50,065 nt of DNA from the NCBI GenBank assembly GCA_026390635.1, contig JAPLFO010000170.1:1-50065 (forward strand). Reading direction: 5' to 3'. The position numbers and the translations under genes were made by a program. Below the pieces are notes generated by a model that was given only the letters and a program-made list of their open reading frames with translations, searched no databases and was not told where the DNA came from. The stretch comes from Ignavibacteriales bacterium (GTDB lineage: Bacteria; Bacteroidota; Ignavibacteria; UBA10030; UBA8401). Of this stretch, positions 14,487 through 36,565 are shown piece by piece (position 1 is the stretch's first letter; the number at the start of each line of letters is the position of its first letter).

Positions 14487-16006
14487 TGGCAAACGCACGC
14501 CATGTCGCCGTGGTATTTGGTGCTCTGCTCATTCTCTCAGTGTCACTGCACATGATGAGCGGAGGCGGTCCGCGAATTTTTCTCATCGGGGACTCTACAA
14601 TGGCGGACAAACCATTGACCGATAATCCGGAACGGGGCTGGGGACAGTTGTTGCCGCAATTCTTCACCCCGGCGGTGGAGATAAAAAACTTCGCCCGCAA
14701 CGGCAGAAGTACAAAAAGTTTTATCACGCAGGGATTATGGCAGAACGTCTGCGATCAACTCAGGAGCGGCGATTATCTCTTCATTCAATTCGGTCATAAC
14801 GATCAGAAAAAAGAAGACACCTCCCGATATGCGGATGCGCAAACGTCATACAAAAATAATTTGCAGTTGTTCATTCGTGCTGCAAAAGACAAAGGAGCCA
14901 TTCCTGTCTTACTGACTCCCGTCAATCGCAGGAAATTCAACAAGACGGGCATGCTGGTAGACACGCACACCGACTATCCCGCTGTTGTTCGTGACGTTGC
15001 ACGCGCAGAACAGATTCCATTGATTGACCTCCATAAAAAGAGTTTCGATGTTTTTCAAAAAGAGGGCGTTGAAGGAACCAAGAAGATATTTCTCTGGACA
15101 AAACCGGGAGAATACCGGTCCAAGCCGGAGGGGACTGAGGATAATACTCATTTTGGCCGGTACGGGGCTGCCCTGGTTGCCGGGTTGGTCGTTGAGGGAA
15201 TCAGGGAACTCAATCTGCCGTTGGTTTCCTGGCTCACAGCATCAGAACAAAAGGTGCTTCCCGGTGCAGAAAGAAAAGTCGGTTTGGATTATTACTTTAA
15301 CAATGAAACGCGTGTGCGAAAAGGCTCATCGACACCGGAACCATTCCACTATGTTTGGGAGGACACCACCTTCAGCGGATTCTCCGAGCTGGGGAGACAA
15401 CTCTTCGCGCTTGGCGCGGAAATTGATTCACTTCATGCTGCGCCCACTCCCGCATCACTTCGGCGTTTGAGCATGTATCTGATCGTTGATCCGGATATCC
15501 CCACAGAAAATCCGCAGCCGCATTACGTTGATGACGCCGCGATTTCTGCAATCACCGCCTGGGTCGAGAATGGCGGGGTACTCGTGTTGATGGGCAATGA
15601 CAAGGGAAACGCAGAATTTGAGCATTTCAATCATCTTGCGGAGAAGTTCGGCATCCATTTCAATGAGGATAGTCACCATCGTGTGACGGGGACAAACTTC
15701 GAACAGGGGGCTGTCGCCCAATTTCCCGCGCATCCTGTTTTTAACGGAGTGAAGAAAATCTATATCAAAGAACTCAGCTCGCTCACGCTGGAAAAGCCCG
15801 CAGTGCCACTGCTGACAGAAAACGAAATTGTGGTCATGGCAACAGCACGATTCGGGAAAGGGATGGTTTTTGCCATCGGAGATCCCTGGCTCTACAACGA
15901 GTATTATGACAATCGAAAATTACCGGAGGGATTTGAAAACTTCAAGGCAGCGAAGAATCTTTTTCGATGGTTACTGGAACAGTCAGCTCCTGTCGGAATG
16001 CCGTAG
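14483..16006 (+). CDS. CE12 rhamnogalacturonan acetylesterase fused to a C-terminal GATase-like domain
   Basis: This 507-residue protein has two domains. Residues ~30-250 are an SGNH hydrolase of the CE12 (RhgT/YesT) group, which deacetylates rhamnogalacturonan. Block I is FLIGDSTMADK with Ser38, block II NFARNGRS with Asn73, block III QFGHNDQ (104-107), and block V EDNTHFGRYG with the Asp220/His223 pair. Residues ~265-500 form a separate domain (YLIVDPDIPTE, ENGGVLVLMGNDKGNAEF, GKGMVFAIGDPWLYNEY) resembling the glutamine-amidotransferase-like region that I recall at the C-terminus of many Bacteroidota GH88/GH105 proteins. A signal anchor lies at residues 8-24. The start at 14483 overlaps the PL10 stop by ATGA. 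The role of the second domain is unknown. Confidence 0.9.
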   Translation: MMANARHVAVVFGALLILSVSLHMMSGGGPRIFLIGDSTMADKPLTDNPERGWGQLLPQFFTPAVEIKNFARNGRSTKSFITQGLWQNVCDQLRSGDYLFIQFGHNDQKKEDTSRYADAQTSYKNNLQLFIRAAKDKGAIPVLLTPVNRRKFNKTGMLVDTHTDYPAVVRDVARAEQIPLIDLHKKSFDVFQKEGVEGTKKIFLWTKPGEYRSKPEGTEDNTHFGRYGAALVAGLVVEGIRELNLPLVSWLTASEQKVLPGAERKVGLDYYFNNETRVRKGSSTPEPFHYVWEDTTFSGFSELGRQLFALGAEIDSLHAAPTPASLRRLSMYLIVDPDIPTENPQPHYVDDAAISAITAWVENGGVLVLMGNDKGNAEFEHFNHLAEKFGIHFNEDSHHRVTGTNFEQGAVAQFPAHPVFNGVKKIYIKELSSLTLEKPAVPLLTENEIVVMATARFGKGMVFAIGDPWLYNEYYDNRKLPEGFENFKAAKNLFRWLLEQSAPVGMP

Positions 16007-16066
16007 GGACAGATTGTTGAAGCGAATAGTAGCGCAATTATCATTCACAATAGACCAGAGATTCAC

Positions 16067-17629
16067 ATGACACAGGATCAACTTTACAAAGCGCTGGCAG
16101 AAGGAAACGGCGTTTCGGAACGAACAACAACAATCACAGTGTCTCCCGGACGATCATTGCAAGTGTATCGAGCCTCCGTGTCAATGCAACAGAAGACGAT
16201 TTTCTGCATCGCGCGCGAGGGAGCGGCAAAGAATCTTTGGATCCTTTCCTTCGACGGCAATCAGACCCTTCTGAATGGCTTCGACGGCGAAGTGATAGAT
16301 CTTTTTCCGGGAGTCTCGATCAAGCGCTGTCAGATGATACACGGCAACGCAGAGGCGCTGCGGTCGATCTTTCCGTACACGAGACCGGTGCTCGTTGGGC
16401 TGCGCAATTCGCTCGGATGCGGTGACCGTCTTGGTATCGCCAATGCAGGTCACATCCGTGCGATGGCAGGCAGCGGTTTCATTCCCGTACTCGCGCAGCA
16501 ATCTGTGCGTGAACTGGAACGGACACGCCGCGAGGCAGTCGACGTGATGGACGCGGCAACGTGGGCGGTGTTCCAGGAAGGATACAAAGGAGGATTTGGC
16601 GCCGACGGGGATCACTTGAAAACGCCGGAAGACATTGATCGGTACGCCAAGGCCGGATTCACGATGTTCACACTGGATATAGGCGCGTATGTCGTCAATG
16701 AAGCCGCGCGCCTGCCGATCGATGATGTGAAACAGAGGGTTGCCGCGCTGCCCTTCGATCTGCTGCGGGACACGCTGAAGGACCTGGTAGCGCGCTATGC
16801 AAATCAGGAATTCATTCTCGCTGCCGATTTTATCCTCAAACCGAAAGAAGAAGACGTCTTGCGCACTGCGGTGAAATATGGTGCGGCAATTGGTCAGACT
16901 GTTACATTGAACAACCATCTTCGTGCACACTACGATCCGGCTTCGTATGAGATAGAACTCTCGGTGGACGAAACAGACACTCCGACCTCACCGCTGGAAC
17001 ATTTCATTATCGCAAACGAATTGCGCCGGCTCGGTGTGTCGATCATCAGTCTGGCTCCCCGCTTCATTGGCGATTTTGAAAAGGGAATAGAATATAAAGG
17101 TGATCTCGAAGCTTTCAAACAGGAATACATCAAGCATCAATATATTGCCCGGCATTTAGGCCCGTATAAAATCAGCATTCATTCGGGCAGCGACAAGTTT
17201 GATATCTACAAGGTCATCGGGAAAATGGGGGCAAAAAATGTGCATGTGAAGACGGCGGGTACCAGCTGGCTTGAAGCGCTTCGTGCGATTGCTTCCGTTG
17301 ATCCGGCGTTGTTTCGGGAGATTTTGAATTTTGCCTGCACACGCTATGCAACAGACCGGCAATCGTACCATGTAACGGGTGAAGTATCCCGTCTCAAGCC
17401 GGCGGAACAATACTCCGATCAGCAGCTAAAAGAGTTGTTGGAAGATGTGAATGCACGCCAGATTCTCCATGTCACCTTTGGCAATATTCTGTCGTCGAAA
17501 GATGCAGCCGGCAATGATGTCTTCAAGCAGCGGATCATGGCATGTTTGAACGAAAACGAGGATGCGCACTATGAGTGTCTCATAAAGCACTTCAATCGGC
17601 ACTTGTCGCCGCTGCTCGGAAAAACATAA
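16067..17629 (+). CDS. uxaE: Tagaturonate epimerase
   Basis: This 520-residue cytoplasmic protein of the UxaE family interconverts D-tagaturonate and D-fructuronate, joining galacturonate breakdown to the glucuronate branch. Recognised blocks include VGLRNSLGCGDRLGIANAGH (~110-129), a GFGADGDHLKTPEDID segment with likely metal ligands, and KISIHSGSDKFDIYKVIG. There is no signal peptide. It follows the CE12 gene by 60 bases in the same direction, so it is probably co-transcribed. It is the only clearly cytoplasmic catabolic enzyme in the locus; uronate isomerase, dehydrogenase, KDG kinase and aldolase must lie elsewhere. Confidence 0.93.
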   Translation: MTQDQLYKALAEGNGVSERTTTITVSPGRSLQVYRASVSMQQKTIFCIAREGAAKNLWILSFDGNQTLLNGFDGEVIDLFPGVSIKRCQMIHGNAEALRSIFPYTRPVLVGLRNSLGCGDRLGIANAGHIRAMAGSGFIPVLAQQSVRELERTRREAVDVMDAATWAVFQEGYKGGFGADGDHLKTPEDIDRYAKAGFTMFTLDIGAYVVNEAARLPIDDVKQRVAALPFDLLRDTLKDLVARYANQEFILAADFILKPKEEDVLRTAVKYGAAIGQTVTLNNHLRAHYDPASYEIELSVDETDTPTSPLEHFIIANELRRLGVSIISLAPRFIGDFEKGIEYKGDLEAFKQEYIKHQYIARHLGPYKISIHSGSDKFDIYKVIGKMGAKNVHVKTAGTSWLEALRAIASVDPALFREILNFACTRYATDRQSYHVTGEVSRLKPAEQYSDQQLKELLEDVNARQILHVTFGNILSSKDAAGNDVFKQRIMACLNENEDAHYECLIKHFNRHLSPLLGKT

Positions 17630-17715
17630 ACAGCGCGGCAACGTGATCTTCTGGGCAAATATCCTTTTTCCCGTTGCTGGACAATGCGAGGCTCCATAAT
17701 CATGATGATTGATGA

Positions 17716-18960
17716 ATGAATATGATCCGGCCTGCTCTTCCTCTTATTATCTTCCTTTTCTCGAGTCTCTCCTCTGCCGACAGAGAGACAAAGGGTCCGT
17801 GGATTTCGGATAGAGGAGATGGAACGTATAAAAATCCCGTTCTGTTTGCTGACTATTCTGATCCCGATCTGATCCGCGTGAATGATGACTACTATCTGAC
17901 TGCGTCGAGTTTTCAGGAGACGCCGGGATTGCCAATACTCCGCTCACGCGATTTGGTCAATTGGTCCATCATCGGGCATGCGATCGACAAACTTCCCTCA
18001 CCCGTCTACGCAATTCCCCAGCAGGGCAAAGGTGTGTGGGCGCCGAGTATCCGTTTTCATAATGGAATGTATCATGTGTACTACGGAGATCCGGATTTCG
18101 GCATTTTTGTCGTTCGGTCAAAGACTCCCGAGGGTCCATGGCAAAAGCCTCATTTGGTACATCAGGCGAAAGGAATGATCGATCCATGTCCGTTGTGGGA
18201 CGATGACGGCAATGCCTACCTTGTTCATGCATGGGCAAAAAGCCGGGCCGGATTCAACAGCGTACTGACAGTGCATCGTATGAATTCTGAAGGCACTGCC
18301 CTTCTGGATAGCGGCACACTGGTGTTTGACGGCCATCAAAACCATCCCACCATTGAGGGACCGAAATTCTACAAGCGAAACGGCTTCTACTATATCTTTG
18401 CCCCTGCCGGTGGTGTGAAACCCGGATGGCAGACCGTGCTCCGGAGCAAATCTCCGTTTGGGCCGTATGAAGACCGGATTGTTCTGGATCAGGGATCAAC
18501 GAGTGTCAATGGTCCGCATCAAGGCGGATGGGTTGAGACTCAGGAAGGGGAGTCATGGTTCATGCATTTTCAGGATGTCGGTGTATGTGGACGAATTCTT
18601 CATCTGCAACCCATGAGTTGGAACAATGATTGGCCGGTGATTGGCGTAGAAAGACAGGGAAAAGGCAAAGGAGAACCGGTCCTTATATTTCAAAAACCGA
18701 ATGTTGGGAACAAATACTCGGTGCTCATTCCTCAGATGTCCGACGATTTTACTTCACCGAATTTGGGACAACAATGGCAGTGGAATGCCAACTACTCCAG
18801 CCGATGGTACTCCCTGACAGAGCGGCGTGGATTTCTCCGTCTGAAGGCTGCTGCCAAGCCGGACGGTGCCGCCAATCTCTGGTCGGCTCCGAATATCCTC
18901 GTCCAGAAATTTCCCGCTCCCTCATTCACCGTGACGCAAAGCTGGGAACTGCAGGAATGA
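17716..18960 (+). CDS. GH43 beta-xylosidase/arabinofuranosidase, catalytic part (frameshifted gene)
   Basis: The five-bladed catalytic domain of family GH43 is complete in this frame. The base is Asp49 in YSDPDL, the pKa modulator Asp156 in MIDPCPL and the acid Glu214 in TIEGPKFY. The signal peptide ends near residue 21. GH43 enzymes release arabinose or xylose from side chains, here probably arabinan on RG-I. After about residue 407 (FTVT) the frame goes wrong and stops at 18960. The C-terminal beta-sandwich continues in another frame (18957-19325), so one base is missing near 18936-18942. The full protein would have ~535 residues, normal for GH43 with its C2 domain. The catalytic domain may still be made. 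Confidence 0.88.
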   Translation: MNMIRPALPLIIFLFSSLSSADRETKGPWISDRGDGTYKNPVLFADYSDPDLIRVNDDYYLTASSFQETPGLPILRSRDLVNWSIIGHAIDKLPSPVYAIPQQGKGVWAPSIRFHNGMYHVYYGDPDFGIFVVRSKTPEGPWQKPHLVHQAKGMIDPCPLWDDDGNAYLVHAWAKSRAGFNSVLTVHRMNSEGTALLDSGTLVFDGHQNHPTIEGPKFYKRNGFYYIFAPAGGVKPGWQTVLRSKSPFGPYEDRIVLDQGSTSVNGPHQGGWVETQEGESWFMHFQDVGVCGRILHLQPMSWNNDWPVIGVERQGKGKGEPVLIFQKPNVGNKYSVLIPQMSDDFTSPNLGQQWQWNANYSSRWYSLTERRGFLRLKAAAKPDGAANLWSAPNILVQKFPAPSFTVTQSWELQE

Positions 18961-19560: not shown

Positions 19561-22527
19561 ATGACAAAGAGTCTAAAGGTACAATCCACACGAAAACTGC
19601 ATTTTGGAGTTGAGTGCGGATGTGAACTGAGCAGCGGCATTGTGAAGATGGTTATTCTCTTGCTGCTGACTTTCGGGACGATCTCAGCACAAACAGGTGG
19701 AAAGATCGCAGGTCAGATACGCGATGTCCAGACTTTGGAACCGCTCGTTGGAGTCAACGTTCTGATTTTGGGAATGGGCCTTGGTGCGACGACGGACGTT
19801 GAGGGAAATTATTTTATTCTCAATGTCCCTGCCGGAAAGTATGATCTCCAGTCATCAATGATCGGCTACCAGGGAGTTCTTCAGCGAGACGTTGTCGTCA
19901 ATTCCAACAGGACCACGGCAGCTGATTTCAAACTCAAATCGACCGTCCTCGAACAGGAAGTAGTAGTTGTTCAAGCTATCCGCCCGGATGTCGAACGTGA
20001 AAAGACTTCGACAAGCGAAATTATCCGTTTTGACGATGTCAAATCGATCGCCGGTATGAGAGATGTCAATGATATTTTGGGATTGGCTGCGGATGTGACG
20101 GATGGCCATTTCCGAGGCGGCCGTTCCAACGAAGAATATTACACGCTCCAGGGGATGGGTATTGTCAATCCGCTGGACGCATCCGCGGCATTTAGGCCGA
20201 TCATGAGTGCCGTTGAAGAAGTGGAAGTCGTGACAAGCGGATTCGGCGCCCAATACGGCAATGCCCAATCCGGTGTCGTGAATATTACGATGAAGGAAGG
20301 GAAATCGGACAAGTGGAACTCGAGACTGGAAACGCGGATGCGCGCACCAAGTATGAAATACTTCGGTCCGAGCGTCTATGACCAGACGGCACAGCCCTAT
20401 TTGCAGAAACTGGCCGATCCCAACTTCTGGAAGTCGGGAGATGCCTCGACAGCATTCAAGTCCATTGTTGGTTGGACTTCCTCGGATTTTGGCGGCGACT
20501 CTACGGTGATGATTCAGGTGGCACAGGCAATCTGGAAGAGCGCCACTTCGCAGGACATCAATCGCAAGTACTGGAACACACTTGACTATAATATTGAAGG
20601 AGCCACCGGCGGCCCGCTCGCAGACGGAGTGACCATGTTTCTTGCTCTGCGGTCAAATGTCGAAAATCCGATCGTTCCGACTGAGGAGCCGAACAAACAG
20701 CAGCAGGTGATGGGAAATATTGCATTCAATCTCGGAGCGGGAGCGATGTTGCGGCTCAGTGGCGGCTACCAGTATGAATTTGACAATATTCTCGGCACCG
20801 GGACGGGTTTCTATCAATGGATCTGGGACCGTATTCTCGGCATTTCCTATAGAAAGAAAGTCAATCAGCAACTGGGTCTCCGGTTCAGCAAAGCACTCAG
20901 TGCACAGTCGTTCTATGAAATTAAGGTCAACACGTTGCGGACGGAAAACCGCCTGGGCACGTCGCCATGGTACGATACGATCACCGATGCAGTGCGCGGA
21001 ATGGAGACTGGCACGGCCATCATCACCAGAACAATGAATTTCATGTTCTATCAGAACATGACCGGAAAATCTTTCTTCTATCTGGGCAATAACCTGAGCA
21101 ACAACAACAACGAAAAATCCCTGACACTCTCTGTCGATGCTTCATTCAAGAGCCAGGTAACAAAATCCCATCTATTGAACGGAGGCATTCAGGGAAGCTA
21201 CTACTCACTGGATGTGAACAATATCGGCAGTATCGCCTCCAAAGGGAGCATCACCCAGAAGCAGTACACGGGACATCCGTTTGAAATTGGTTTCTATGCA
21301 CAGGATAAGATGGAATTCGAGGGAATGATCGCCAATGTCGGCGTGCGCTGGGACCTTTGGAATTCCAACACCGAATACTTTGTCGATCAATTTGATCCCT
21401 TTGTTGTTCGCGATTCGATTGGGAATCCCACGTTGGAATATGATGCCGACCGGGCGCAGCGTGCGAATGCGAAGGCGATGGGACGGCTGCAGCCGCGTAT
21501 CGGCATCTCATTCCCGGTCACAACCTCGACCGTTTTTCATCTGAATTATGGAACATTCATGCAGCGGCCATCTTTCCAGAATGTCATCGGAGCGACAAAA
21601 AAGATGCCGCCATTGCCCGGCGTTCCAAGCGTCAACAACCTTTCCAATCCGCGGCTCAACCCGCAGGTCACCAACAGCTATGACATCGGCGTGATGCAGG
21701 GATTGGGTGAGGGATTCACACTGGATGTGAGCGGATACTACAAAGACATCAAGGACCTGCTAGAACAGGCTGTCTACACCAATCTTGCCTCCGGTACGAG
21801 CTACTATTCCTATTTCAACCGGGACTATGCCGATGTGCGCGGCTTCCGGATATCCTTCGGGAAACGGCGCGGTGATTTCACGGGCGCTATCAATTATCAG
21901 TTCAGTGTTGCCACCGGCAAGAGCGCTTCCGCTTCCAACGCACCGGTGGCGATCACCAAAGATCCCTCCGGCGTTGTCTCGACTGATGTAGTCACAAAAG
22001 TACCTATCAAGGATGTTCTTCTGAATTTCGACCGCACGCATAATTTGATTCTCAATGCAGCCTACCAGACGAACGACGAATTCGGGCCGCAGATCTGGGA
22101 TACATATCCGCTGAGCAATATTATCGTGTCCGTCAGTTCCTTCGCACGCAGCGGACGCCCCTATACATCGCCGGACAATGCGACAGATGTGAATGCTCTG
22201 CGTTCTCCAGCAGAGTACAATACGAATCTTAAGGTGTCAAAAAACTTCAAGGACTTTTTCGGACTTCAAACGACATTCTATGCCGAAGTGTTCAACATTC
22301 TCAACGACAAAATTTTCAATTATAATTATCTCTTCAGCACGGCGAACAAAGTTGACCAGAATGTCGCAACAGCGAACTATACGCACTTCGCCTTCGAAGA
22401 TCCTGATCATGGGGTGTTGTACTGGGATGATCAGAACTACGGGAGCGCGTATGGTGTGGATCACTCCTTCTTGCTCTATGACAATGCGCCGCGATCTTTC
22501 TTTTTCGGCATGGTCATCCAATTTTGA
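19561..22527 (+). CDS. TonB-dependent outer-membrane receptor with carboxypeptidase-regulatory N-domain
   Basis: This 988-residue outer-membrane transporter has a long positively charged n-region and hydrophobic core (ILLLLTFGTISAQ, cleavage ~residue 45). A carboxypeptidase-D-regulatory-like domain follows (GKIAGQIRDVQTLEPLVGVNV, ~48-125), then a plug (RDVNDILGLAADV; VEEVEVVTSGFGAQYGNAQSGVVNITMKEG), then a 22-strand-type barrel ending in aromatic IQF. Such receptors import large substrates with TonB energy, here presumably oligogalacturonides or RG-I fragments. AAGGAG precedes the ATG. It heads the run of exported-protein genes 19561-28504. No SusD-type lipoprotein follows it. Confidence 0.93.
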   Translation: MTKSLKVQSTRKLHFGVECGCELSSGIVKMVILLLLTFGTISAQTGGKIAGQIRDVQTLEPLVGVNVLILGMGLGATTDVEGNYFILNVPAGKYDLQSSMIGYQGVLQRDVVVNSNRTTAADFKLKSTVLEQEVVVVQAIRPDVEREKTSTSEIIRFDDVKSIAGMRDVNDILGLAADVTDGHFRGGRSNEEYYTLQGMGIVNPLDASAAFRPIMSAVEEVEVVTSGFGAQYGNAQSGVVNITMKEGKSDKWNSRLETRMRAPSMKYFGPSVYDQTAQPYLQKLADPNFWKSGDASTAFKSIVGWTSSDFGGDSTVMIQVAQAIWKSATSQDINRKYWNTLDYNIEGATGGPLADGVTMFLALRSNVENPIVPTEEPNKQQQVMGNIAFNLGAGAMLRLSGGYQYEFDNILGTGTGFYQWIWDRILGISYRKKVNQQLGLRFSKALSAQSFYEIKVNTLRTENRLGTSPWYDTITDAVRGMETGTAIITRTMNFMFYQNMTGKSFFYLGNNLSNNNNEKSLTLSVDASFKSQVTKSHLLNGGIQGSYYSLDVNNIGSIASKGSITQKQYTGHPFEIGFYAQDKMEFEGMIANVGVRWDLWNSNTEYFVDQFDPFVVRDSIGNPTLEYDADRAQRANAKAMGRLQPRIGISFPVTTSTVFHLNYGTFMQRPSFQNVIGATKKMPPLPGVPSVNNLSNPRLNPQVTNSYDIGVMQGLGEGFTLDVSGYYKDIKDLLEQAVYTNLASGTSYYSYFNRDYADVRGFRISFGKRRGDFTGAINYQFSVATGKSASASNAPVAITKDPSGVVSTDVVTKVPIKDVLLNFDRTHNLILNAAYQTNDEFGPQIWDTYPLSNIIVSVSSFARSGRPYTSPDNATDVNALRSPAEYNTNLKVSKNFKDFFGLQTTFYAEVFNILNDKIFNYNYLFSTANKVDQNVATANYTHFAFEDPDHGVLYWDDQNYGSAYGVDHSFLLYDNAPRSFFFGMVIQF

Positions 22528-22559
22528 ATGATTATCAAAACATAAAACAGGAATCTCCG

Positions 22560-24929
22560 ATGAAACACATACCCTATCTGATCCTGACGCTCGCATTGCT
22601 TTCGTCTGTCGTGTGGGCCCAGCGTGATTATCGCACACATGCACGCAGTATGCTCCGGCAGACGGTGTACAACACCGGCGAGCTCGGACGTGCGCTTGAA
22701 GGATCAAATTCCAATACCGTCGGCATTACCGAGGGCACGTCTGCGCTTGAATGGCCGCCCAATTCGCGCCAGACTCTCGATGGCATTCAGTACTTCGGTC
22801 ATCAGAATGGCCAGGGTTCCGGCCTGGTGCTCCGTGCTCTGGTGCGCGGTGTCTATGAAGCCAGGGCATGCGGCGGCATTACCGACGGATCCGGCAATGC
22901 AACGGCGATAGCCGGTGTGTACGTTGTTCCCGGACCGGTCACGCGTATAGAAAATTATCCCGTGATGCCTGACGGCAAATTGAATACAGCCTACAATCCC
23001 AATGAAGCGGAAGAGATTATTGTCTCAAAATACAAAACGAAAGATCCGATGAAGCTGTCCATCACGCAAACCAGTCGTGCGTGGAGTTTTCCGGGCTACG
23101 ATGCATTCATTATTATTGAATATGATATTGTGAATGAAGACTCGATAGACTATACGGAAGGATTCGTGATGTTTCAGAACGCGTTTTCACCTTCTGCATT
23201 CGGTCTGATGAGGAAGTACGGAGTATGGAATGAATCTTCTGTCACCAGCCGCAGCAGGGAGGAATATGCGCGGTACAATTTTTCACGACAAATGACGTAC
23301 GTCCACAGCAGAGACGGATTTCCGGATCCCACATACTTCACGAAATGGTCGACGCCGGGAAATCGCGGCGGGCTGACGGCACCCCAGGCGATCGGGTTTC
23401 TTCCTCTCTATTATGACTACAGTCATTTGATGGCGAAGCAGACTGTTCTCTATAAGCAATCGGACTCCGCCCGTGTATGGGATGGTAACGGCAAATTCAA
23501 ACAGCCTTATACGACCGAGACAAACGGAAACCGGAATCAGGAAATGGCACGCACCATAGCCCTGGGATTGGATATCAATGTCCACAATCCGGCAGGATTC
23601 AACAACAAGTCCACATCAACCACTCCGTCGCAGGATTCATCCAACTGGGCGAACTACTATGCTCCCTATGCGGCGTGTCCGTGGAATCCAGGTCTGGCCG
23701 ATCCGGCAAAGAGTCTGGATCTGATAGACTACTGGCATGGAAAGATGAAACCGCGTGCGTACTCTGCAAGCGGATACACCGGAGCTTTTTTCCATTATAC
23801 ATCGTACGGTCCGTATGTGTTCACCAAAGGAGATCACCTCAAATTTGCAGTTGCCGAGGTTGTCGGCTATGGACCGGGCGTGTCCTCAGATTCTGTGTGG
23901 AGAGACGCAGGCGGACGGAATACCGGAACGGGGCCGAGCAACAGCTCCTGGTTTTCTCCGGTTCCGAGCTGGTATGATTCGATTTCATATTCTGGAATTT
24001 CCGCGATCGCCGGAATCAGTTCCATGGGCAGCGCCTATTTGAAAACCCATGAACTTCCCTGGTTTGTCAGTGCGGGAAAAGGGATTTCAAAATTGGATAC
24101 GTCCCGTGTGATCTCCATTCGCGATGCTGCCGACCGGGCAATCCAAATGTACACCGGAAAGCCGCTGACAAAATACGATGGAACTCAATTCAAGCCGGAA
24201 AATTCGCCGGCCTCAGGTTCATACGGAGCATCACAAACGTATATTCCATTTCCGGCTCCGGTGCTCAATGTGAACGATGGACCAGGCGGACGAAACAATC
24301 TGGTCTGGAGTTCTCTTGTGGAAGGATTCATGGCGCTTCCGAATGTCCAGTCCGCCGTTCTCGCCGGGCGTATCAAGGCGGGGCTGAGCCACTACCTCGT
24401 TCTAAAATCTCCGGAAGGCCTGGGTGCATGGAAAAGGATGGACAGCGTTGGGATTAAGGATCCGCGATACTATGCGCTCAATCAATACACGTTTGTCGAT
24501 ACTGCGAGTCTCGTCGGCGAAAACTACTACTATTGTGTGATCTCGGTTGATTCTCTGGGCGGCAAGAGCGGAATGACAAACATTACCTATCATAAGACCC
24601 AGCGTCCCGCGGTGAAACATCTTGGCGGCAAGCTGTATGTGGCCCCCAATCCGCTCATTCTGTCCGCCAATTTTGGAGGATCGACGACGGCTGGAGACAT
24701 CAACGATAAAATCGTTTTCTACGGGTTGCCGAAGAAGGCCACCATTCGGATTTTCTCGTACAGTGGGCAATTAATATCGACGATTGATCATGATGAGAAT
24801 GTCGATACAAACGAATGGTTCCAGATATCGAGGAACAGTCAGCGCATCGCTGCCGGTGTCTACTTCTACACAGTTGATGACCTCGAAGAAGGCACGAGGG
24901 CTACCGGCAAATTCGTCATTATTCATTGA
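22560..24929 (+). CDS. Large secreted/surface protein of unknown function downstream of the TonB receptor
   Basis: This 789-residue protein has a clear signal peptide (LILTLALLSSVVWAQ, cleaved ~residue 20). The main part (~20-600) is not recognised; it is rich in aromatic residues, Gly and Ser, as in extracellular beta-rich proteins. A fibronectin-like segment comes next (LNVNDGPGGRNNLVWSS), then a C-terminal ~90 residues resembling a degenerate T9SS sorting/FlgD-like domain (KLYVAPNPLILSANF, then GVYFYTVDDLEEG, then GKFVIIH). It follows the receptor by 32 bases and precedes the PorV-like gene by 19, so it is in the same operon. Position suggests a surface partner of the receptor, possibly standing in for SusD; that is inference. 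Confidence 0.75.
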   Translation: MKHIPYLILTLALLSSVVWAQRDYRTHARSMLRQTVYNTGELGRALEGSNSNTVGITEGTSALEWPPNSRQTLDGIQYFGHQNGQGSGLVLRALVRGVYEARACGGITDGSGNATAIAGVYVVPGPVTRIENYPVMPDGKLNTAYNPNEAEEIIVSKYKTKDPMKLSITQTSRAWSFPGYDAFIIIEYDIVNEDSIDYTEGFVMFQNAFSPSAFGLMRKYGVWNESSVTSRSREEYARYNFSRQMTYVHSRDGFPDPTYFTKWSTPGNRGGLTAPQAIGFLPLYYDYSHLMAKQTVLYKQSDSARVWDGNGKFKQPYTTETNGNRNQEMARTIALGLDINVHNPAGFNNKSTSTTPSQDSSNWANYYAPYAACPWNPGLADPAKSLDLIDYWHGKMKPRAYSASGYTGAFFHYTSYGPYVFTKGDHLKFAVAEVVGYGPGVSSDSVWRDAGGRNTGTGPSNSSWFSPVPSWYDSISYSGISAIAGISSMGSAYLKTHELPWFVSAGKGISKLDTSRVISIRDAADRAIQMYTGKPLTKYDGTQFKPENSPASGSYGASQTYIPFPAPVLNVNDGPGGRNNLVWSSLVEGFMALPNVQSAVLAGRIKAGLSHYLVLKSPEGLGAWKRMDSVGIKDPRYYALNQYTFVDTASLVGENYYYCVISVDSLGGKSGMTNITYHKTQRPAVKHLGGKLYVAPNPLILSANFGGSTTAGDINDKIVFYGLPKKATIRIFSYSGQLISTIDHDENVDTNEWFQISRNSQRIAAGVYFYTVDDLEEGTRATGKFVIIH

Positions 24930-24948
24930 ACCTAAGGAATCGAGAGCG

Positions 24949-26004
24949 ATGAAGAAAATTCGACTATATACAATACCCCTGATCGCGATCATGGTGTTCT
25001 CATCGATTGCGTTTTCGCAGAAGGTCGGCAGTACATCGATGCAGTTCTTGAAGGTGATGCCGTGTGCCCGTGCAACAGCGATGGGAGATGCTTACGGTGT
25101 TCTTGCATCAGGTGCGGAAGCGGTGTTCTGGAATCCGGCGGGTGTTGCGCGGGTGCAGAACAACGAACTCTCCATGACGTATTTAAAATGGATTTTCGAC
25201 ACACAACAAGCTGCGTTCTCCTATGCCACAACGATTGAATCGTTTGGGGCGGTTGGCGTGCAGTTTCAGTACGTGGATTTTGGCGAAATCCAAGAAGCGA
25301 TTTGGTCTCCGACGTACACCGACCGGTCAAATCCCGATCATGTCGACTATCCTGGTTTAACTGGAAGGACTTTTCGCCCATTCAGTTACCTGCTTGGAGT
25401 TACGTACGCGAATCAAATCACCGACAAGTTTTCAACTGGATTATCGGTGAAGTATGCGCACGAATCGCTCTATAACGGAGAGGTCGCTGCCACGGTGGTG
25501 GATCAGAATCATGACGGCGTCCCCGAAGAAATAAAAGTAAATACTTGGGCGAATGGTATTATTTTTGATTTCGGGCTGGACTATAGTACCGGTTTTCGCA
25601 CCGTCCGTATCGGCGCTTCAATGCAGAACTTCGGTGCCAACGTGAAGTACGCCTCGGAAACAAATCCTGTTCCCATGGCGCTCAGAGTTGGAGTGGCAGC
25701 AGACGTCATCGGAGAAGGAGCACTCCTTGTTTCGAGCGACGAAAACCGGTTGGGTGTCGCCTTTGATTTCTTCCAACCGAATGATTATGCTCAGCAGATG
25801 CACCTTGGAGCCGAGTATGAATATGCCCATTTGCTTGCTGTCCGAGCAGGATACAAGTTCAACTATGATGCGGACGGGCTCACCGTCGGTGCAGGCATCC
25901 AGCAGCAACTTGGTGACATGAGGTTCTTCTTTGACTACAGCTTTGCCACTTTGAATTATAATCTCGGCAATGTCCATCGCATAAGCCTAGGAGTGAGATT
26001 CTAA
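24949..26004 (+). CDS. PorV/UPF0164-like outer-membrane beta-barrel protein
   Basis: This 351-residue outer-membrane protein has a signal peptide (IPLIAIMVFSSIAFSQ). The mature N-terminus VGSTSMQFLKVMPCARATAMGDAYGVLASGAEAVFWNPAGVARV is the hallmark of the PorV/PorQ (UPF0164, FadL-related) barrels. Alternating strands run to a C-terminal aromatic-containing RISLGVRF. PorV is the outer-membrane partner that shuttles T9SS cargo to attachment, so this copy could serve the tagged lyases encoded next to it. The start at 24949 follows AAGGAA, and its stop overlaps the next start by one base. Confidence 0.85.
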   Translation: MKKIRLYTIPLIAIMVFSSIAFSQKVGSTSMQFLKVMPCARATAMGDAYGVLASGAEAVFWNPAGVARVQNNELSMTYLKWIFDTQQAAFSYATTIESFGAVGVQFQYVDFGEIQEAIWSPTYTDRSNPDHVDYPGLTGRTFRPFSYLLGVTYANQITDKFSTGLSVKYAHESLYNGEVAATVVDQNHDGVPEEIKVNTWANGIIFDFGLDYSTGFRTVRIGASMQNFGANVKYASETNPVPMALRVGVAADVIGEGALLVSSDENRLGVAFDFFQPNDYAQQMHLGAEYEYAHLLAVRAGYKFNYDADGLTVGAGIQQQLGDMRFFFDYSFATLNYNLGNVHRISLGVRF

Positions 26005-27536
26005 TGAAACATACATTCGCATACGTGGTACTGTTCTGTGTCTTCCTCGCATTCGTGGAACAGACATCTGCACAAGGATACGATTCCCCTCTGATTCTTC
26101 AGGGCCTCAACCATCTGCAGCTTCAGTCTGCGGCTGCCCGGGGTGCAGGAGGAACGACAATCGGCGTCAATAACGATGCATCAATGATGTTTACCAATCC
26201 ATCCGGACTTTCCGCGTGCACTGGTATTCAAATATCCATCGGTAGCGGACAGCAGTCGACAGATGCGAAACAGGAACAACACTACGGCGGCCTGCAGGGA
26301 TTTTCCGCTTTCAGTCTTCTGATGGAGGGAACCACCGGATCTTTGAGCGATCCGGACACGTCAAAAACCTACAATGGCACAAAAGTGAAGATCACTGACC
26401 AGACGGATTCTGTGCAGCGGCCGTTCGATGCAATCGGCCCGAATTGGAGCAGGTCAAAGACAAACATCCTTCCACTTCAGGCCTTTGTTGCCGTTCCGGT
26501 GACAATTGGAAATATTCGTTTTGTTGTCGGAGCCGGAATGGCAGAATATGCCAATCTGAACTGGTATTATCAGAACAACAATTGCCTTTCTCCATCGGTT
26601 CTTTCTGTTCTGAACGGAACGATTTCCACATCTACTCTCAATGCAAATCCTTACCGGACACAATGGTACCAATACTACCAGCAGCGGGATGGATCCATCA
26701 ACGGCTATGGCGGATCGATTGCTGCGACGGTGTTCGGAAAATTGGCGCTGGGCGCCAGTGCAATGATGTTGTCGGGCAGTACGACGGATGATGAAGTGCG
26801 AGTGGGGAGAGGAAGAATGGAATTTTACAATAGTTCATTGCGGCTGATCAAACAGGGAAGTGTCAGCTATACAAAAACAGGAACTTCGGACTACAGCGGG
26901 GAAGAATACACCGCCAGTGCCGAATACACCGCCCGCAATTTCAGTATAGGCGTTTCGGTGAAACCACCAACCACCATCACAAGGAAATACTCCTCTACAA
27001 TGGTATGGGATTCTCTGGCCGCAACAAGCAGACTGGATGGACGCGTCGATTCTGTCCATATTACCAGAACATCCACCGTTGCGGGGAAAGATAACATGGA
27101 ACTTCCATGGCGCGGTACTCTTGGCGTTGCCTTGAACATCCGGAACAATGTGACCCTGCATCTGGACTATGAAGTCCGCTCCTTCGCATCGGCGAAATAT
27201 TCCGGAGCGGATGGAACGGTGACGCAGCCATGGGTATCCAGTTCCATTTTCCATGTCGGCGCCGAGTACAGGCCGTACACATGGCTTGCCCTTCGTGCGG
27301 GCTCCACGAGCTATGTTGAAACTTTCGAACCGTTGTCAAGTGCTTTGCGGGGAGACGGGGTCAGCTATCCGATTTACTCTGCCGGATGTGGCATTTCATT
27401 CGCCCATGCAACGCTGAATATCGCCTATGAATATTCGGACAGAAAATTTGTTGATACGTGGTCGAATGCGGCGAGCATTAATAATCTTGTCACCAACACG
27501 ATCGTCGCAGATTTGTCGTACGAGATTCCGTGGTAG
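26004..27536 (+). CDS. FadL/PorV-like outer-membrane barrel protein
   Basis: This 510-residue protein has a signal peptide (VVLFCVFLAFVEQTSAQ). The N-terminal signature of FadL/TodX-type and PorV-type barrels is present (QSAAARGAGGTTIGVNNDASMMFTNPSGLS), followed by beta-strand-rich sequence to a Trp terminus (YEIPW). It is a second, larger barrel directly behind the PorV-like gene, and the start codon overlaps that gene's TAA by one base. FadL relatives pass hydrophobic molecules through a lateral gate. Here either an export-shuttle or an uptake role is possible. Confidence 0.82.
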   Translation: MKHTFAYVVLFCVFLAFVEQTSAQGYDSPLILQGLNHLQLQSAAARGAGGTTIGVNNDASMMFTNPSGLSACTGIQISIGSGQQSTDAKQEQHYGGLQGFSAFSLLMEGTTGSLSDPDTSKTYNGTKVKITDQTDSVQRPFDAIGPNWSRSKTNILPLQAFVAVPVTIGNIRFVVGAGMAEYANLNWYYQNNNCLSPSVLSVLNGTISTSTLNANPYRTQWYQYYQQRDGSINGYGGSIAATVFGKLALGASAMMLSGSTTDDEVRVGRGRMEFYNSSLRLIKQGSVSYTKTGTSDYSGEEYTASAEYTARNFSIGVSVKPPTTITRKYSSTMVWDSLAATSRLDGRVDSVHITRTSTVAGKDNMELPWRGTLGVALNIRNNVTLHLDYEVRSFASAKYSGADGTVTQPWVSSSIFHVGAEYRPYTWLALRAGSTSYVETFEPLSSALRGDGVSYPIYSAGCGISFAHATLNIAYEYSDRKFVDTWSNAASINNLVTNTIVADLSYEIPW

Positions 27537-27595
27537 GCGGAAAGAGAAGTAACTGCACCAGTCACACTCAACAAAACACAAAGAAGGAGATACCC

Positions 27596-28504
27596 ATGAA
27601 AAGGATACCGTTTATTCTTGCTGCCATTCTAATCGTCTCAGCTCTTCCGATAAGTATGGTTCAGGCTCAGACACCTGATTCCACGGTATGGCTGCTCAAT
27701 ACAACCGTGTGGGGTATGCCGACAAACACCGCGAATCTTGCAGCAGATTCGGCAACCCTTGGTCCGGCGGCAAACTGGATTCTTGCGAGCTACAACACAA
27801 ATGGAAGACGCTGTAATCTGGGTGCCGCCGGCTGGCCTGCAAGTGAAACTGATACGGCGGCAGACCGGTATGAACAGTTCGAAACTGCCCCCAAAGCGGG
27901 AAAAAGCTTCACCGTCACCTATATCAATCTAAACTATGGCGGTGCGGGAAGCACGAATGCCATGAAGAGTAATCTGTACTACTCCGTCGACGGCTGGAAA
28001 ACACGCAAGTTGGCGAATACAGATTCTTCACTTCTCCACCCCAACAGCACGATGGCAACGTATTACAAGGCGCTGAATGTTGTCGTCGCGGCCGGCGCAA
28101 AGTTTTCGCTCCGCATTTATCCCTATTGGGTTTCCGCCACAGCCGGAAGCAATTCCAAATATCTTGTACTGAATGACGTCGCGATAGGCGGTACGACAAA
28201 ATCATCGACCGATGTTCGACCGGAACAAAGCGGCGTTCCCGGGCACTTCGAAGTCTATCAGAATTATCCGAACCCGTTCAATCCTGCAACGATGATCAGC
28301 TACAGCCTTCCCGGCGATCAATTCGTCACGGTGAAGGTGTTCAATCTTGTTGGGCAGGAGGTTGCCGCAGTCTATTCCGGACGCGTGAGTGCTGGGTACC
28401 ATCAAGTGCAGTTTGACGCGTCGCATCTTGCTTCGGGCATATACCTGTATCGCGTTCAGGCGGGCTCCTCTGTTGACATGAAGCGCATGACGTTGGTAAA
28501 ATAA
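27596..28504 (+). CDS. T9SS-sorted secreted protein, unknown N-terminal domain
   Basis: This 302-residue protein has a signal peptide (LAAILIVSALPISMVQAQ), an unrecognised ~190-residue beta-rich domain (STVWLLNTTVWGMPTNTANL; SNLYYSVDGWKT; FSLRIYPYWV) and a complete type A T9SS sorting domain (~215-302): QNYPNPFNPATMISYSLP, GQEVA, GIYLYRV, then MTLVK. The middle domain resembles the non-catalytic modules that accompany PL1 lyases in related bacteria, so carbohydrate binding is a fair guess. The start follows AAGGAG. The gene closes the receptor operon, and a strong terminator follows. Confidence 0.85.
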   Translation: MKRIPFILAAILIVSALPISMVQAQTPDSTVWLLNTTVWGMPTNTANLAADSATLGPAANWILASYNTNGRRCNLGAAGWPASETDTAADRYEQFETAPKAGKSFTVTYINLNYGGAGSTNAMKSNLYYSVDGWKTRKLANTDSSLLHPNSTMATYYKALNVVVAAGAKFSLRIYPYWVSATAGSNSKYLVLNDVAIGGTTKSSTDVRPEQSGVPGHFEVYQNYPNPFNPATMISYSLPGDQFVTVKVFNLVGQEVAAVYSGRVSAGYHQVQFDASHLASGIYLYRVQAGSSVDMKRMTLVK

Positions 28505-28528
28505 AATCAATAGGATTCATCCCGCTAG

Positions 28529-28577
28529 CCCGCATTGATCCGGATTCGCCTGCGGCGGACCAATGCGGGTTTCTCTT
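28529..28577 (+). terminator. Rho-independent terminator after the receptor operon
   Basis: CCCGCATTG (28529-28537) pairs with CAATGCGGG (28561-28569); four further pairs follow after one mismatch. The stem is directly followed by TTTCTCTT. This ends the transcript of the TonB-receptor gene group 25 bases after its last stop codon and separates it from the PL1 genes. Confidence 0.8.
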
Positions 28578-28595
28578 ATCAGGAAAAGATGAAGT

Positions 28596-30284
28596 ATGCT
28601 CAGACTGTCGTTTATGCTCCTCATATTTCTCACCGTCACCGCGTGTGCACAGCAGCTCGCTTTTCCGGGGGCCGAAGGCTACGGCAAATATGCAGCCGGT
28701 GGGCGGGGCGGAAAAGTGTATGAAGTGACAAATTTGTCCGATGCCGGAGCCGGGAGTCTTCGCGCTGCTGTGGAAGCGTCGGGTGCGAGAACTGTCGTCT
28801 TCCGTGTTTCCGGTACCATCACGCTCACCAAGGAGTTGAAGATCTCCAAGGACTCGATTACGATTGCCGGACAGACCGCACCGGGTGATGGCATTTGCCT
28901 GAAAAAATATCAGTTCGTCGTGGAAGCGAATCACGTGATCGTCCGGTATCTCCGCGTCCGACTCGGGGATGAAACGGGTTTGGAGACTGATGCAATGGGG
29001 GGGAAAAAGACCGGAAAAAAGAAAATTATCATTGATCACTGCTCCGTCAGTTGGAGTGTTGACGAAGCGCTCTCGCCATATTGCAATGACAGCCTGACGG
29101 TGCAGTGGTGTCTCATCAGCGAGAGCCTCTACAATTCCAATCATCCCAAAGGAGCGCATGGATATGGTGGAATTTGGGGCGGGAACCGAAATACCTATCA
29201 TCACAATCTTCTTGCTCATCATTCAAGTAGAAATCCCCGATTCGCTTCAGGCGCCGGATTGAATGACTATCGGAATAACGTCGTCTATAATTGGGGATTC
29301 AACAGCACCTATGGAGGAGAGCGAAAGGATCCTGCTGATTCTCTGGTCTATGATTTTTTCCAGGTAAATATGGTGGCGAATTATTATAAGGCCGGTCCAG
29401 GGACAAAAAGCGGAGTCCGATCTAGAATATGCGGTCCATCGTCCAGAAACGGAGCGGCTGATTGCGGTCAATGGTACATCTCCGACAATTATGTGCAGGG
29501 AAATCCGACTGTCACTGCCGATAATTGGAACGGCGGAGTACAGCCGGACGCCGGATTGACACTCGCAATGCTGAAAGCGGACCAGCCTTTCAACACAATG
29601 CCGATTGTTCAGCAGACGGCGGCGGAGGCATTCATTTCCGTACTCCAAAAAGCCGGGGCATCTCTCCCGAAAAGAGATTCGCTCGATGAGAGAATTGTGA
29701 GAGAAACAAGAAATGGAACGGCAACATATGAAGGAACAACCTACCGCGCAAATCAGGGATTCCCCGTCTCCGCGCCGATTACTGGAATCATCGATTCCCA
29801 AAAAGATGTCGGTGGTTGGCCGGTACTGAATTCAATACCCGCTCCCTCAGATGTTGACCATGATGGAATGCCGGACAGTTGGGAACTCTCTCATGGCCTT
29901 GATCCCAATAATGCAGCCGATCGCAATCTGATTGGAGCCGACGGGTATACGAAGCTCGAGGAGTATCTGCAAAGTCTGATCGAAACACTTTCAGACGTCC
30001 GGCCGCAACCGGGCCGACCGGAGTCATTCATTCTCGAGCAGAATTATCCCAATCCATTTAATCCGTCAACGATGATCCGATATAGCATTGATCGCAGTGT
30101 ACGGGTGCAGCTGACTGTACATGACATCCTCGGCCGGAAGGCCGCCGTTCTCATCGATCAGATCCAGGCGCCGGGAGAACATATATGTCAGTTTAAAGCG
30201 GCGGGATTGGCAAGCGGAATATATTTTTGTCTCCTGCGCTGCGGAGAAAAATCACTTAATCGAAAAATGGTACTGACACGATGA
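28596..30284 (+). CDS. PL1 pectate lyase with calcium-binding linker and T9SS sorting domain
   Basis: This 562-residue exported lyase has a short signal peptide (ends CAQQ). The PL1 beta-helix lies at ~20-400, starting AFPGAEGYGKYAAGGRGG. Active-site blocks are IIIDHCSVSWSVDE and HHSSRNPRF; the arginine of the latter (near residue 210) is the expected base. An EF-hand-like DVDHDGMPDSWELSHGLDP (~418) follows, then a T9SS domain with NYPNPFNPSTMIRYS ending RKMVLTR. It should be exported across the outer membrane and cut homogalacturonan outside the cell. It overlaps the next gene, its paralogue, by ATGA. Confidence 0.93.
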   Translation: MLRLSFMLLIFLTVTACAQQLAFPGAEGYGKYAAGGRGGKVYEVTNLSDAGAGSLRAAVEASGARTVVFRVSGTITLTKELKISKDSITIAGQTAPGDGICLKKYQFVVEANHVIVRYLRVRLGDETGLETDAMGGKKTGKKKIIIDHCSVSWSVDEALSPYCNDSLTVQWCLISESLYNSNHPKGAHGYGGIWGGNRNTYHHNLLAHHSSRNPRFASGAGLNDYRNNVVYNWGFNSTYGGERKDPADSLVYDFFQVNMVANYYKAGPGTKSGVRSRICGPSSRNGAADCGQWYISDNYVQGNPTVTADNWNGGVQPDAGLTLAMLKADQPFNTMPIVQQTAAEAFISVLQKAGASLPKRDSLDERIVRETRNGTATYEGTTYRANQGFPVSAPITGIIDSQKDVGGWPVLNSIPAPSDVDHDGMPDSWELSHGLDPNNAADRNLIGADGYTKLEEYLQSLIETLSDVRPQPGRPESFILEQNYPNPFNPSTMIRYSIDRSVRVQLTVHDILGRKAAVLIDQIQAPGEHICQFKAAGLASGIYFCLLRCGEKSLNRKMVLTR

Positions 30285-32035
30285 GAAATCTCCTCCGATG
30301 TAACCATATAGAATGCAGATTCAGGAACATGGTATGGGTCGCATTTGCTGCTATTCTCTCTACGTGCCGGTTGAATGCACAGCAGCCGGCTTTTCCCACC
30401 GCCATGGGATTCGGAAAATTTACCGTTGGCGGTCGCGGCGGGAAGGTCATCGAAGTCACGAATCTGAATGATGCTGGCACGGGAAGCTTCCGTGCGGCAG
30501 CAGCGTCGACCGGTGCGCGCACAGTAGTGTTTCGCATCTCCGGGACGATCCTTCTTAATTCGGACATCAAGATTGCCTCGGACTCGATCACGATTGCCGG
30601 ACAGACGGCGCCGGGAGACGGCATCTGTCTTCGGAAATATAAGCTCTACGTTGAAGCGAATCAGGTTGTCATCCGCTATATGAGATTCCGACTTGGAAAT
30701 GAGCAGGGTGGTTCCAGTGAAAGCGATGCCGTGGGAGGGACAGCGTCCAGAAAGAATATCATCATCGATCATTGTTCTGCAAGCTGGAGCACCGATGAAA
30801 CACTATCGTTCTATGACAACTCGATGATGACGGTGCAATGGTGTCTGATCACGGAGAGTCTGTACAATTCCACACATCCGAAAGGTGCGCATGGATACGG
30901 CGGGATCTGGGGCGGCCAGAATGTGACTTTCCATCATAACCTTCTCGCACACCACAGCAGCAGGAACCCGAGATTTTGCGGTAGCAGGTATACCAGACAG
31001 CCGAGCCTGGAGGTTGTAGACTTCAGGAACAACGTAGTCTATAACTGGGGTTTCAACAGCGTGTACGGCGGCGAAGGGGGCAATCAGAATATGGTGAATA
31101 ATTATTACAAACCCGGGCCCGCAACGAAATCAGGAGCGCTGCGCTACAGGATTCTCGACCTGACATCCTACTTTTTTGATTCGAGCGTCAGACCGGACAC
31201 CGTACCGGCTGGAAATTTCTATGTCAGCGGGAATTATGTCGATGGCAATACAATCGCGACGAACGACAATTGGACCTACGGAGTGCAGACATCCGTTGCG
31301 GTGTCTCAGAAGAACAAATCACAGGCAGCTGCTCCGTTTCCCGTCGGGAGCATTACGACACAGACAGCGCAGGACGCATTCGATGCAGTGCTGACTCATG
31401 CAGGAGCAAGCATGCCCGTTCGCGATACTCTCGACCGGCGCATTGTGTACGAAACGCGCATGGGTCTTGCGACCAGAAGCGGGTACAGCTATCCGAAAAA
31501 GAACCTCGGGGATTCCACCATCATCTCCGGAATTATTGACACGCAAAATGATGCCGGCGGCTGGCCGGTGCTGAATTCCCTCCCCGCTCCGCTCGATTCT
31601 GATCATGACGGGATGCCGGATACATGGGAGGACGCGCACGGATTGACAAAGAGTGATCCTTCAGACGGACGACGTATTCGCCCGGATGGCTACTCAGAAC
31701 TCGAAGCGTATCTGAACAGCCTGACATATGACCAGGCAGCCATGAGTGTGCAGGGTCCGGTATCACATCCCTTCTGTTTTTCACTGGAGCAGAATTTTCC
31801 TAATCCTTTCAATCCGGTCACGCGGATACGATATACGATTCCTGAGATCGCCCGCGTGAGACTCGAAGTGTTCGATCTGCTCGGAAAACGTCTTGCCGGC
31901 CTTGTCGACGAAATCAAATCCCCCGGCAGCTACGCGGTGGACTTCGACGGCGGACACCTCAGCTCGGGAATTTACCTATATCGATTGTCGAATGGTACCC
32001 GGTCGATTTCAAAAAAGATGATTCTCCTTCGATGA
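30281..32035 (+). CDS. PL1 pectate lyase, tandem paralogue, T9SS-sorted
   Basis: This 584-residue protein has the same architecture as the preceding gene: signal peptide, PL1 beta-helix beginning AFPTAMGFGKFTVGGRGG, active-site blocks IIIDHCSASWSTDE and HHSSRNPRF, EF-hand-like DSDHDGMPDTWEDAHGL (~440) and T9SS domain NFPNPFNPVTRIRYT ending KKMILLR. Clear similarity over the whole length shows a tandem duplication that has since diverged. The ATG at 30281 overlaps the upstream stop. A second ATG at 30329, just before the hydrophobic signal core, is an alternative start. Confidence 0.92.
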   Translation: MRNLLRCNHIECRFRNMVWVAFAAILSTCRLNAQQPAFPTAMGFGKFTVGGRGGKVIEVTNLNDAGTGSFRAAAASTGARTVVFRISGTILLNSDIKIASDSITIAGQTAPGDGICLRKYKLYVEANQVVIRYMRFRLGNEQGGSSESDAVGGTASRKNIIIDHCSASWSTDETLSFYDNSMMTVQWCLITESLYNSTHPKGAHGYGGIWGGQNVTFHHNLLAHHSSRNPRFCGSRYTRQPSLEVVDFRNNVVYNWGFNSVYGGEGGNQNMVNNYYKPGPATKSGALRYRILDLTSYFFDSSVRPDTVPAGNFYVSGNYVDGNTIATNDNWTYGVQTSVAVSQKNKSQAAAPFPVGSITTQTAQDAFDAVLTHAGASMPVRDTLDRRIVYETRMGLATRSGYSYPKKNLGDSTIISGIIDTQNDAGGWPVLNSLPAPLDSDHDGMPDTWEDAHGLTKSDPSDGRRIRPDGYSELEAYLNSLTYDQAAMSVQGPVSHPFCFSLEQNFPNPFNPVTRIRYTIPEIARVRLEVFDLLGKRLAGLVDEIKSPGSYAVDFDGGHLSSGIYLYRLSNGTRSISKKMILLR

Positions 32036-32157
32036 CTGATGGATGTTTGGACCACAGAATCGGGTTTTCATTTCAATAGTGGAAATTATCGACCTGTATC
32101 AAATATTGGATCCGATTTGAATAAATGCCCGATGCCCATCGAAGGCGGAAAATAGTC

Positions 32158-33258: not shown

Positions 33259-33296
33259 TCGCCTGACCTTCAGGTGCGATTGTGTGTGAAACCGCG

Positions 33297-33319
33297 GCCG
33301 ACATTCCGCATATGTCGGC
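33297..33319. other. Hairpin between the pectinesterase gene and the next
   Basis: GCCGACAT and ATGTCGGC form a perfect 8-base-pair stem with a 7-base loop, 39 bases after the pectinesterase stop. A smaller dyad CCTGA/TCAGG lies at 33262-33274. Neither has a T tract. They may end the pectinesterase transcript. Confidence 0.4.
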
Positions 33320-33408
33320 GCACCGACCCGTATTGTCTTCCCTTCAGCCTCTGTGCCTCTCTACAATGTTCCACAGCAACTTCTTCCTGGTGCGCTCCGG
33401 GATCAGAC

Positions 33409-33437
33409 TTGCATTATTTCGAAAAATCTTGTATAAT
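33409..33437 (+). promoter_or_regulatory. Sigma-70-like promoter before the T9SS-sorted protein gene
   Basis: TTGCAT (33409-33414), a 17-base spacer and TATAAT (33432-33437) match the housekeeping consensus well. The transcript would have a leader of about 115 bases before the ATG at 33562. Beyond this and the hairpins, the 303-base gap 33259-33561 shows nothing. Confidence 0.5.
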
Positions 33438-33561
33438 TACATATTCGTAAATAGTCATTTGTTAGTGGTCCCACCACCGGGGGGATTCATCGATCTAGTC
33501 GTGCGGCACCGAGCGATCCAACTCACCATATTATCCATCACTTTCATAGAAGGGGAGAACT

Positions 33562-34848: not shown

Positions 34849-35021
34849 CATAGATGAAGAATCGAGGAATCCGGCGAAAATCTGGTTGACTCTGTCGACG
34901 TGCAGTCGAGATTGCTCGTCGTCAGGGAAACAGGAGCGTCACTATCCCGTAGGTGAGAAGACGCTTCCAACCTCCCTTGACAATCAGTATAGAAATTGTT
35001 AAGTTATCGATAAAGTAAACG

Positions 35022-36563: not shown

Positions 36564-36565
36564 TC

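Follow-up and report, generated by a model that had tools for sequence, protein, structure and literature searches.

The stretch described here occupies positions 19561-28504 on the + strand of a 50,065-nucleotide window (the whole stretch of DNA that was analysed) from the Ignavibacteriales bacterium assembly GCA_026390635.1, a genome of 3.98 Mb in 202 contigs. It carries a candidate uptake module built around a receptor, a surface protein and two barrels. The first gene encodes a TonB-dependent receptor (TBDR) with an N-terminal carboxypeptidase-regulatory-like domain (19561..22527, 988 residues; CarbopepD_reg_2, 1.8e-16). It is followed by a secreted surface protein (SP; 22560..24929, 789 residues), an outer-membrane barrel of the PorV/PorQ family that is probably a dedicated SP holder (24949..26004, 351 residues; NF033709, 1.3e-62, over cut-off) and a second outer-membrane barrel, assigned to the FadL/BamG fold from its predicted model (26004..27536, 510 residues). 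The last gene encodes a small type A cargo of the type IX secretion system (T9SS), a local passenger (27596..28504, 302 residues; TIGR04183 and PF18962 over cut-off). The intergenic gaps are 32, 19, -1 and 59 bases, the start of the FadL-fold gene overlapping the PorV-family stop by one base. All five genes were thus found in the order and on the strand given by an earlier note on this DNA. That note also placed a single terminator after them, and a hairpin followed by a T-rich tract at ~28527..28578 on the + strand (fold -24.3 kcal/mol) probably ends the transcription unit. The hairpin stands out only modestly from shuffled sequences (z = -1.48) and is not among the results of a consensus terminator scan, which was restricted to short loops. 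The genome encodes about 150 T9SS cargo domains and T9SS machinery, including a SprA_N match (2.8e-52) and a PorQ over cut-off.

Profile searches of the TBDR against the PDB matched Cir (2e-23), the SusC homolog 8aa4 (4.6e-16), PhuR and FepA, which confirmed the kinship of its plug and barrel to known TonB-dependent transporters. None of the NCBIfam models at E<=0.1 gave it a SusC/RagA signature. A search for SusD_RagB returned zero matches in the whole genome, the locus included, which bears out the view that the place of SusD is taken here by an unrecognised secreted protein.

SP comprises a signal peptide, a beta-rich N-terminal region, an FnIII-like domain and a C-terminal domain (CTD) spanning residues ~690-789. 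Its N-terminus begins MKHIPYLILTLALLSSVVWAQ, and the signal peptide has no lipobox; a lipobox-like string was found in 1 of 50 SP relatives and is apparently spurious. Thirty-five public sequences of usable length were collected as SP relatives. AlphaFold modelled SP from 36 sequences (pLDDT 81, pTM 0.86) as a beta-rich protein, 14% of which is helical. The top 50 fold matches of the model in the PDB do not include SusD, which is a helical protein; they consist of tandem FnIII domains and of beta-sandwich domains from GH94/GH15-type enzymes, all at low TM (~0.2 for the sandwich domains). In a Pfam scan of 31 relatives, the N-terminal part gave no domain except one CHRD match, and neither SusD nor any CAZyme family was detected. 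This part has many strongly conserved residues, and the family assignment of SP is limited to a sub-threshold T9SS CTD. SP is therefore not a SusD and not a predicted lipoprotein. The earlier note had allowed that a clear SusD fold might emerge in this family; the Pfam scans, the model and the fold matches all lack one.

The SP CTD is about 100 residues long and forms seven strands in the model. It scores 21.6 bits against TIGR04183 (cut-off 23) and falls under the Pfam threshold, as expected for the degenerate sorting domain that had been suspected here; one paralog reaches 23.4 bits and another 26.3. The type B model CHU_C scores 21.2 bits against a cut-off of 27. Profiles of SP CTDs matched PorZ (3.5e-5) and then PorU (0.042) in the PDB, and the whole-SP profile likewise found both. 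Cargo CTD profiles from the same genome matched 8glj_D and 8glk_D, which are annotated as ordinary secreted-protein sorting domains, with RgpB at E = 1. In a phylogenetic tree, 19 of the 20 SP CTDs form a clade separate from 33 cargo CTDs with a support of 1.0. The SP CTD is thus nearer to PorZ and PorU than to cleaved cargo CTDs, the PorU match alone being weak. PorZ and PorU retain their CTDs of 96 and 108 residues, whereas cleaved CTDs have 67-88 residues (PMC11285876), so the length of the SP domain fits the non-cleaved class and not the cleaved one. PorZ is anchored by PorQ and PorU by PorV (PMC5562754). The proposal that every SP has a PorV-family barrel of its own as holder is based mainly on these two anchoring pairs and on the PorZ/PorU-like class of the SP CTD.

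The PorV-family product scores 212.3 bits against NF033709 (PorV/PorQ family, cut-off 90). It remains below the T9SS equivalogs NF033710 and NF033711, which mark PorV or PorQ proper (84.7 against 250 bits and 87.3 against 220 bits, respectively). Its profile matches PorV (6h3i, 1.2e-36) in the PDB, which places it in the PorV family and not with PorP/SprF. Another use of the family is possible at a separate locus of this genome (L081, 9745-12591), where tandem PorV-family genes stand without SP or TBDR.

The FadL-fold product has no Pfam match. Its model (pLDDT 81) best matches BamG (9hiv_F, 7.8e-16), followed by FadL and TodX; it stays below the NF053685 cut-off and scores 47.7 against 250 bits for the BamG equivalog.

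Searches with SP and the PorV-family protein found about 20 further loci in the same genome, with the order TBDR-SP-PorV in most. The trio is intact at 16 of 19, in a set partly picked by PorV similarity. A scan with the SP alignment retrieved 37 public loci from Ignavibacteria, Calditrichota, KSB1 and unclassified Bacteroidota bins. As these were selected by SP alone, they can tell whether the SP family mostly lacks a TonB receptor, a possibility raised in the earlier note. It does not: among assessable public loci, a TBDR lies directly upstream of SP in 31/33 and a PorV-family gene directly downstream in 30/32, with both present in 28/30. In one of the two incomplete trios, a frameshift splits SP. 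In other Bacteroidota genomes a TBDR adjoins SP at 19 of 20 loci, and both partners are present at 18, one exception being ordered TBDR-PorV-SP. The same test applied to 95 ordinary T9SS cargo genes from the same DNA gave 0/89 for each partner. Chance neighbourhood of the genes is therefore rejected. Relatives of SP at E <= 1e-20 occur in 43/148 genomes and 35/83 genera of a phylum-wide sample. The TBDR, SP and PorV-family genes, joined in this subfamily by the FadL-fold gene, travel and were inherited together; far from being an isolated five-gene case, the module recurs as a widespread type. What had been taken for a five-gene set holds for these genes but not for the fifth, since the 302-residue cargo without its tag has no relative in other loci. 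It was rejected as a module member and placed outside the conserved unit.

Labelling the loci by their neighbouring enzymes gave 20 pectin loci, 11 PL6 loci and none with both. In the SP tree the two labels are parted by a single change. The TBDR, PorV and FadL trees also require one change each, against at least 5-6 with shuffled labels. Paralogs inside single genomes (this one and those designated G008 and G030) divide in the same way, so taxonomy is not the cause of the split. The phylogeny of the module genes thus tracks the polysaccharide degraded by the adjoining enzymes. Tagged PL6 enzymes lie downstream of the module in the PL6 group. The FadL-fold gene occurs in both the pectin and the PL6 subfamilies and, in this genome, at two further loci (L062 and L063). 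Trios without it have mixed neighbourhoods and may import other things. The link of the window module to pectin is borne out by these trees and by its neighbours. Upstream lie GH28, GH88, a PF09492 pectate lyase, a GDSL esterase, the tagaturonate epimerase UxaE and GH43 (10817..18960, + strand). Downstream lie mostly T9SS-tagged enzymes, namely pectate-lyase-like proteins, a pectinesterase, a Pel9A-like lyase and a Pectate_lyase_4 (PL1) protein (28596..39511, + strand). Positions 10817-39511 of the window thus make up a large pectin-degradation locus with many tagged lyases and a tagaturonate epimerase, and without SusCD.

Genome G008, which we take to be Rhodothermus marinus DSM 4252, carries a TBDR-SP-PorV-FadL-PL6 operon with short gaps (locus L147, 594-9998 of contig C1), in which the PL6 gene starts 6 bases after the FadL-fold gene. 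Both published rmar1165 primers map exactly within this PL6 gene, which identifies it as rmar1165. The Rmar1165 protein has been shown by experiment to be an endo-poly-MG alginate lyase (PMC4954714). G008 contains six further SP-PorV loci, five with a TBDR called alongside and one on the smaller contig. The latter is a TBDR-SP-PorV trio (L149, 5171-12313 of contig C2, 125,133 bases); its contig is probably a plasmid, so the module may be mobile. G008 also has six SusD matches; the module therefore coexists with SusCD and is no simple replacement for it. The Rmar_1070-1073 xylan cluster, in which a TonB receptor is followed by a sorting-domain protein (PMC6987092), was considered as a further trio but found no support, as that stretch of G008 has no PorV-family match.

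We propose that the module is probably a substrate-specific importer of acidic polysaccharides, in the present case pectin. Its surface subunit would be a T9SS substrate, held by a PorV-family barrel of its own; the lid function and the anchoring are the inferred parts of this proposal. SP would be exported through the type IX system by means of its CTD. It would be neither cleaved nor covalently attached as ordinary cargo is, and would stay bound by the CTD to its barrel in the manner of PorZ on PorQ and PorU on PorV. T9SS-tagged lyases would release oligo- or polyuronides, which the N-terminal part of SP may capture and pass to the TBDR for import with TonB energy. SP might thus do the work of SusD without being a SusD. 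More speculatively, the FadL-fold barrel could provide another platform to which, for instance, a tagged lyase attaches, or form a side pore for oligouronides.

Several observations weigh against this proposal. Congruent trees would also arise from linkage alone. Several other trios of the same genome have no CAZyme neighbours, so sugar uptake may hold for some subfamilies only. No carbohydrate-binding fold could be confidently assigned to SP, whose beta-sandwich matches are at TM ~0.2, and the matches of its CTD to PorZ and especially to PorU are weak. Finally, both the SP-PorV and the SP-TBDR contacts are inferred.

The earlier note had left the choice between import and display of pectin fragments. 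The pectin context stands and import is favoured, with display kept as a lesser rival that we regard as possible but unlikely. SP would then be an adhesin or scaffold that is held by the PorV-family barrel and binds polymer, while the TBDR would sense, as a transducer of the anti-sigma type, or import something unrelated. The FnIII-like domains of SP and its retained-type CTD would suit such a role, and adjacent cognate shuttles are used by type B adhesins (PMC12618676, PMC9143113). However, the TBDR is the tightest neighbour of SP (31/33 and 19/20 loci) and its tree follows the substrate no less closely than that of SP. Moreover, the pectin and PL6 copies adjoin degradative enzymes, and the window copy also lies near intracellular uronate catabolism (UxaE). 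SP might alternatively be an unrecognised enzyme for acidic polysaccharides (a lyase, hydrolase or esterase) kept near the receptor by the barrel. The many conserved N-terminal residues and the slight fold likeness to GH94/GH15-type beta-sandwich domains speak for this idea. It is nevertheless improbable, as only the sandwich is matched, paralogs of a common plan occur in varied contexts and 0/31 members match a CAZyme family.

Somewhat more doubtful still is that the PorV-family barrel shuttles the tagged lyases of the locus in general and is not specific to SP, which comes close to the earlier suggestion of an own PorV copy for local T9SS cargo. Such lyases are indeed encoded nearby, and other species do rely on PorV to shuttle type A cargo (PMC5562754). 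However, the PorV-family gene follows SP at 30/32 public loci and cargo at 0/89, and the CTD classes of SP and cargo differ. The suggestion is therefore disfavoured, and the barrel is more likely a dedicated SP holder than a shuttle for local cargo. An ordinary SusCD pair whose SusD is too divergent to recognise would share the operon position and the general context, but the Pfam, genome and PDB fold searches, the beta-rich model, the missing lipobox and the receptor without SusC signature rule out a disguised SusD almost entirely.

The proposed importer shares features with several known systems. Like SusCD/RagAB of Bacteroidia, it combines, in one operon with degradative enzymes, a TonB barrel bearing an N-terminal carboxypeptidase-regulatory-like domain and a surface protein. 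It differs in that the surface protein is no SusD and no predicted lipoprotein, bears a T9SS-type CTD and has its own PorV-family barrel, and in that the receptor lacks the SusC/RagA signature. BtuB-BtuG (PMC10404256) sets a precedent, being a TonB transporter whose surface lid is beta-rich and not a SusD, although BtuG is lipid-anchored, forms a propeller and serves vitamin B12, and it has neither a T9SS domain nor a PorV-family partner. In PorZ-PorQ and PorU-PorV (PMC5562754), a T9SS-exported protein retains its CTD, and a barrel of the PorV/PorQ family holds it at the surface; the SP CTD matches PorZ and PorU, and SP would be retained likewise. Those pairs belong to the secretion machine and have no TBDR, whereas here about 20 dedicated pairs are tied to receptors. 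The gene of a cognate shuttle or anchor barrel also lies directly downstream of the T9SS-exported surface protein in SprB-SprF and other type B cargo (PMC12618676, PMC9143113), but in the present module the CTD is type A-like, the barrel belongs to the PorV family and not to PorP/SprF, and a TBDR is added. BamG-BamH (PMC12578637) uses a FadL-fold barrel as the platform for a surface protein, and BamG is the best fold match of the 26004-27536 product; this product is below the BamG equivalog cut-off, however, and neither BamA nor BamH is encoded here. The parts thus come from known families and the principle resembles SusCD and BtuBG, the novelty lying in the combination with a T9SS-exported, barrel-held subunit. 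No earlier description of such a subunit together with a TBDR was found in the literature searched, which lay outside subscription journals and preprints, so that absence is unproven.

Bacteroidota other than Bacteroidia have few SusD proteins or none, yet they break down the polysaccharides of plants and algae, and how the products are imported had no clear answer; in the class of this genome, SusD was present in 17 of the 61 genomes sampled. The module offers a tangible candidate: its partners are named, substrates are predicted for two of its subfamilies, and it occurs in a cultured organism, Rhodothermus marinus, where the operon ends in the gene of a characterised lyase. It ties T9SS surface anchoring to TonB-dependent uptake. 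The pairing of type B domains with a cognate barrel next to them is established, and type A domains are stated to all use PorV (PMC12618676, PMC9143113). The module questions PorV as the single shuttle for all type A cargo. On the most radical reading, which we rate as about as likely as not, the T9SS would have a third class of sorting domain that resembles type A but is retained and read by a dedicated PorV paralog, contrary to the one-PorV statement for type A.

Variation around the conserved genes was also observed. In the PL6 subfamily, two small open reading frames (~250 and 190-260 residues) lie directly 3' of the FadL-fold gene; the pair at L063 (9215-10725) has no Pfam family, and similar pairs occur at L062, L105, L109, L111 and L122. 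In many loci of the pectin subfamily, the FadL-fold gene is followed by a conserved T9SS-tagged family of ~510-610 residues, whose untagged part is unrelated to the 302-residue protein of the window. Its members include L095 8234-9766, L096 14743-16359, L097 14844-16442, L098 14815-16656, L100 14726-16321, L120 14851-16422 and L123 11005-12798. The trio is reordered to TBDR-PorV-SP at L141 (5052-12721). In the genome of the window, additional small open reading frames stand between TBDR and SP at L068 (13082-14254, 390 residues) and L076 (12053-12535, 160 residues).

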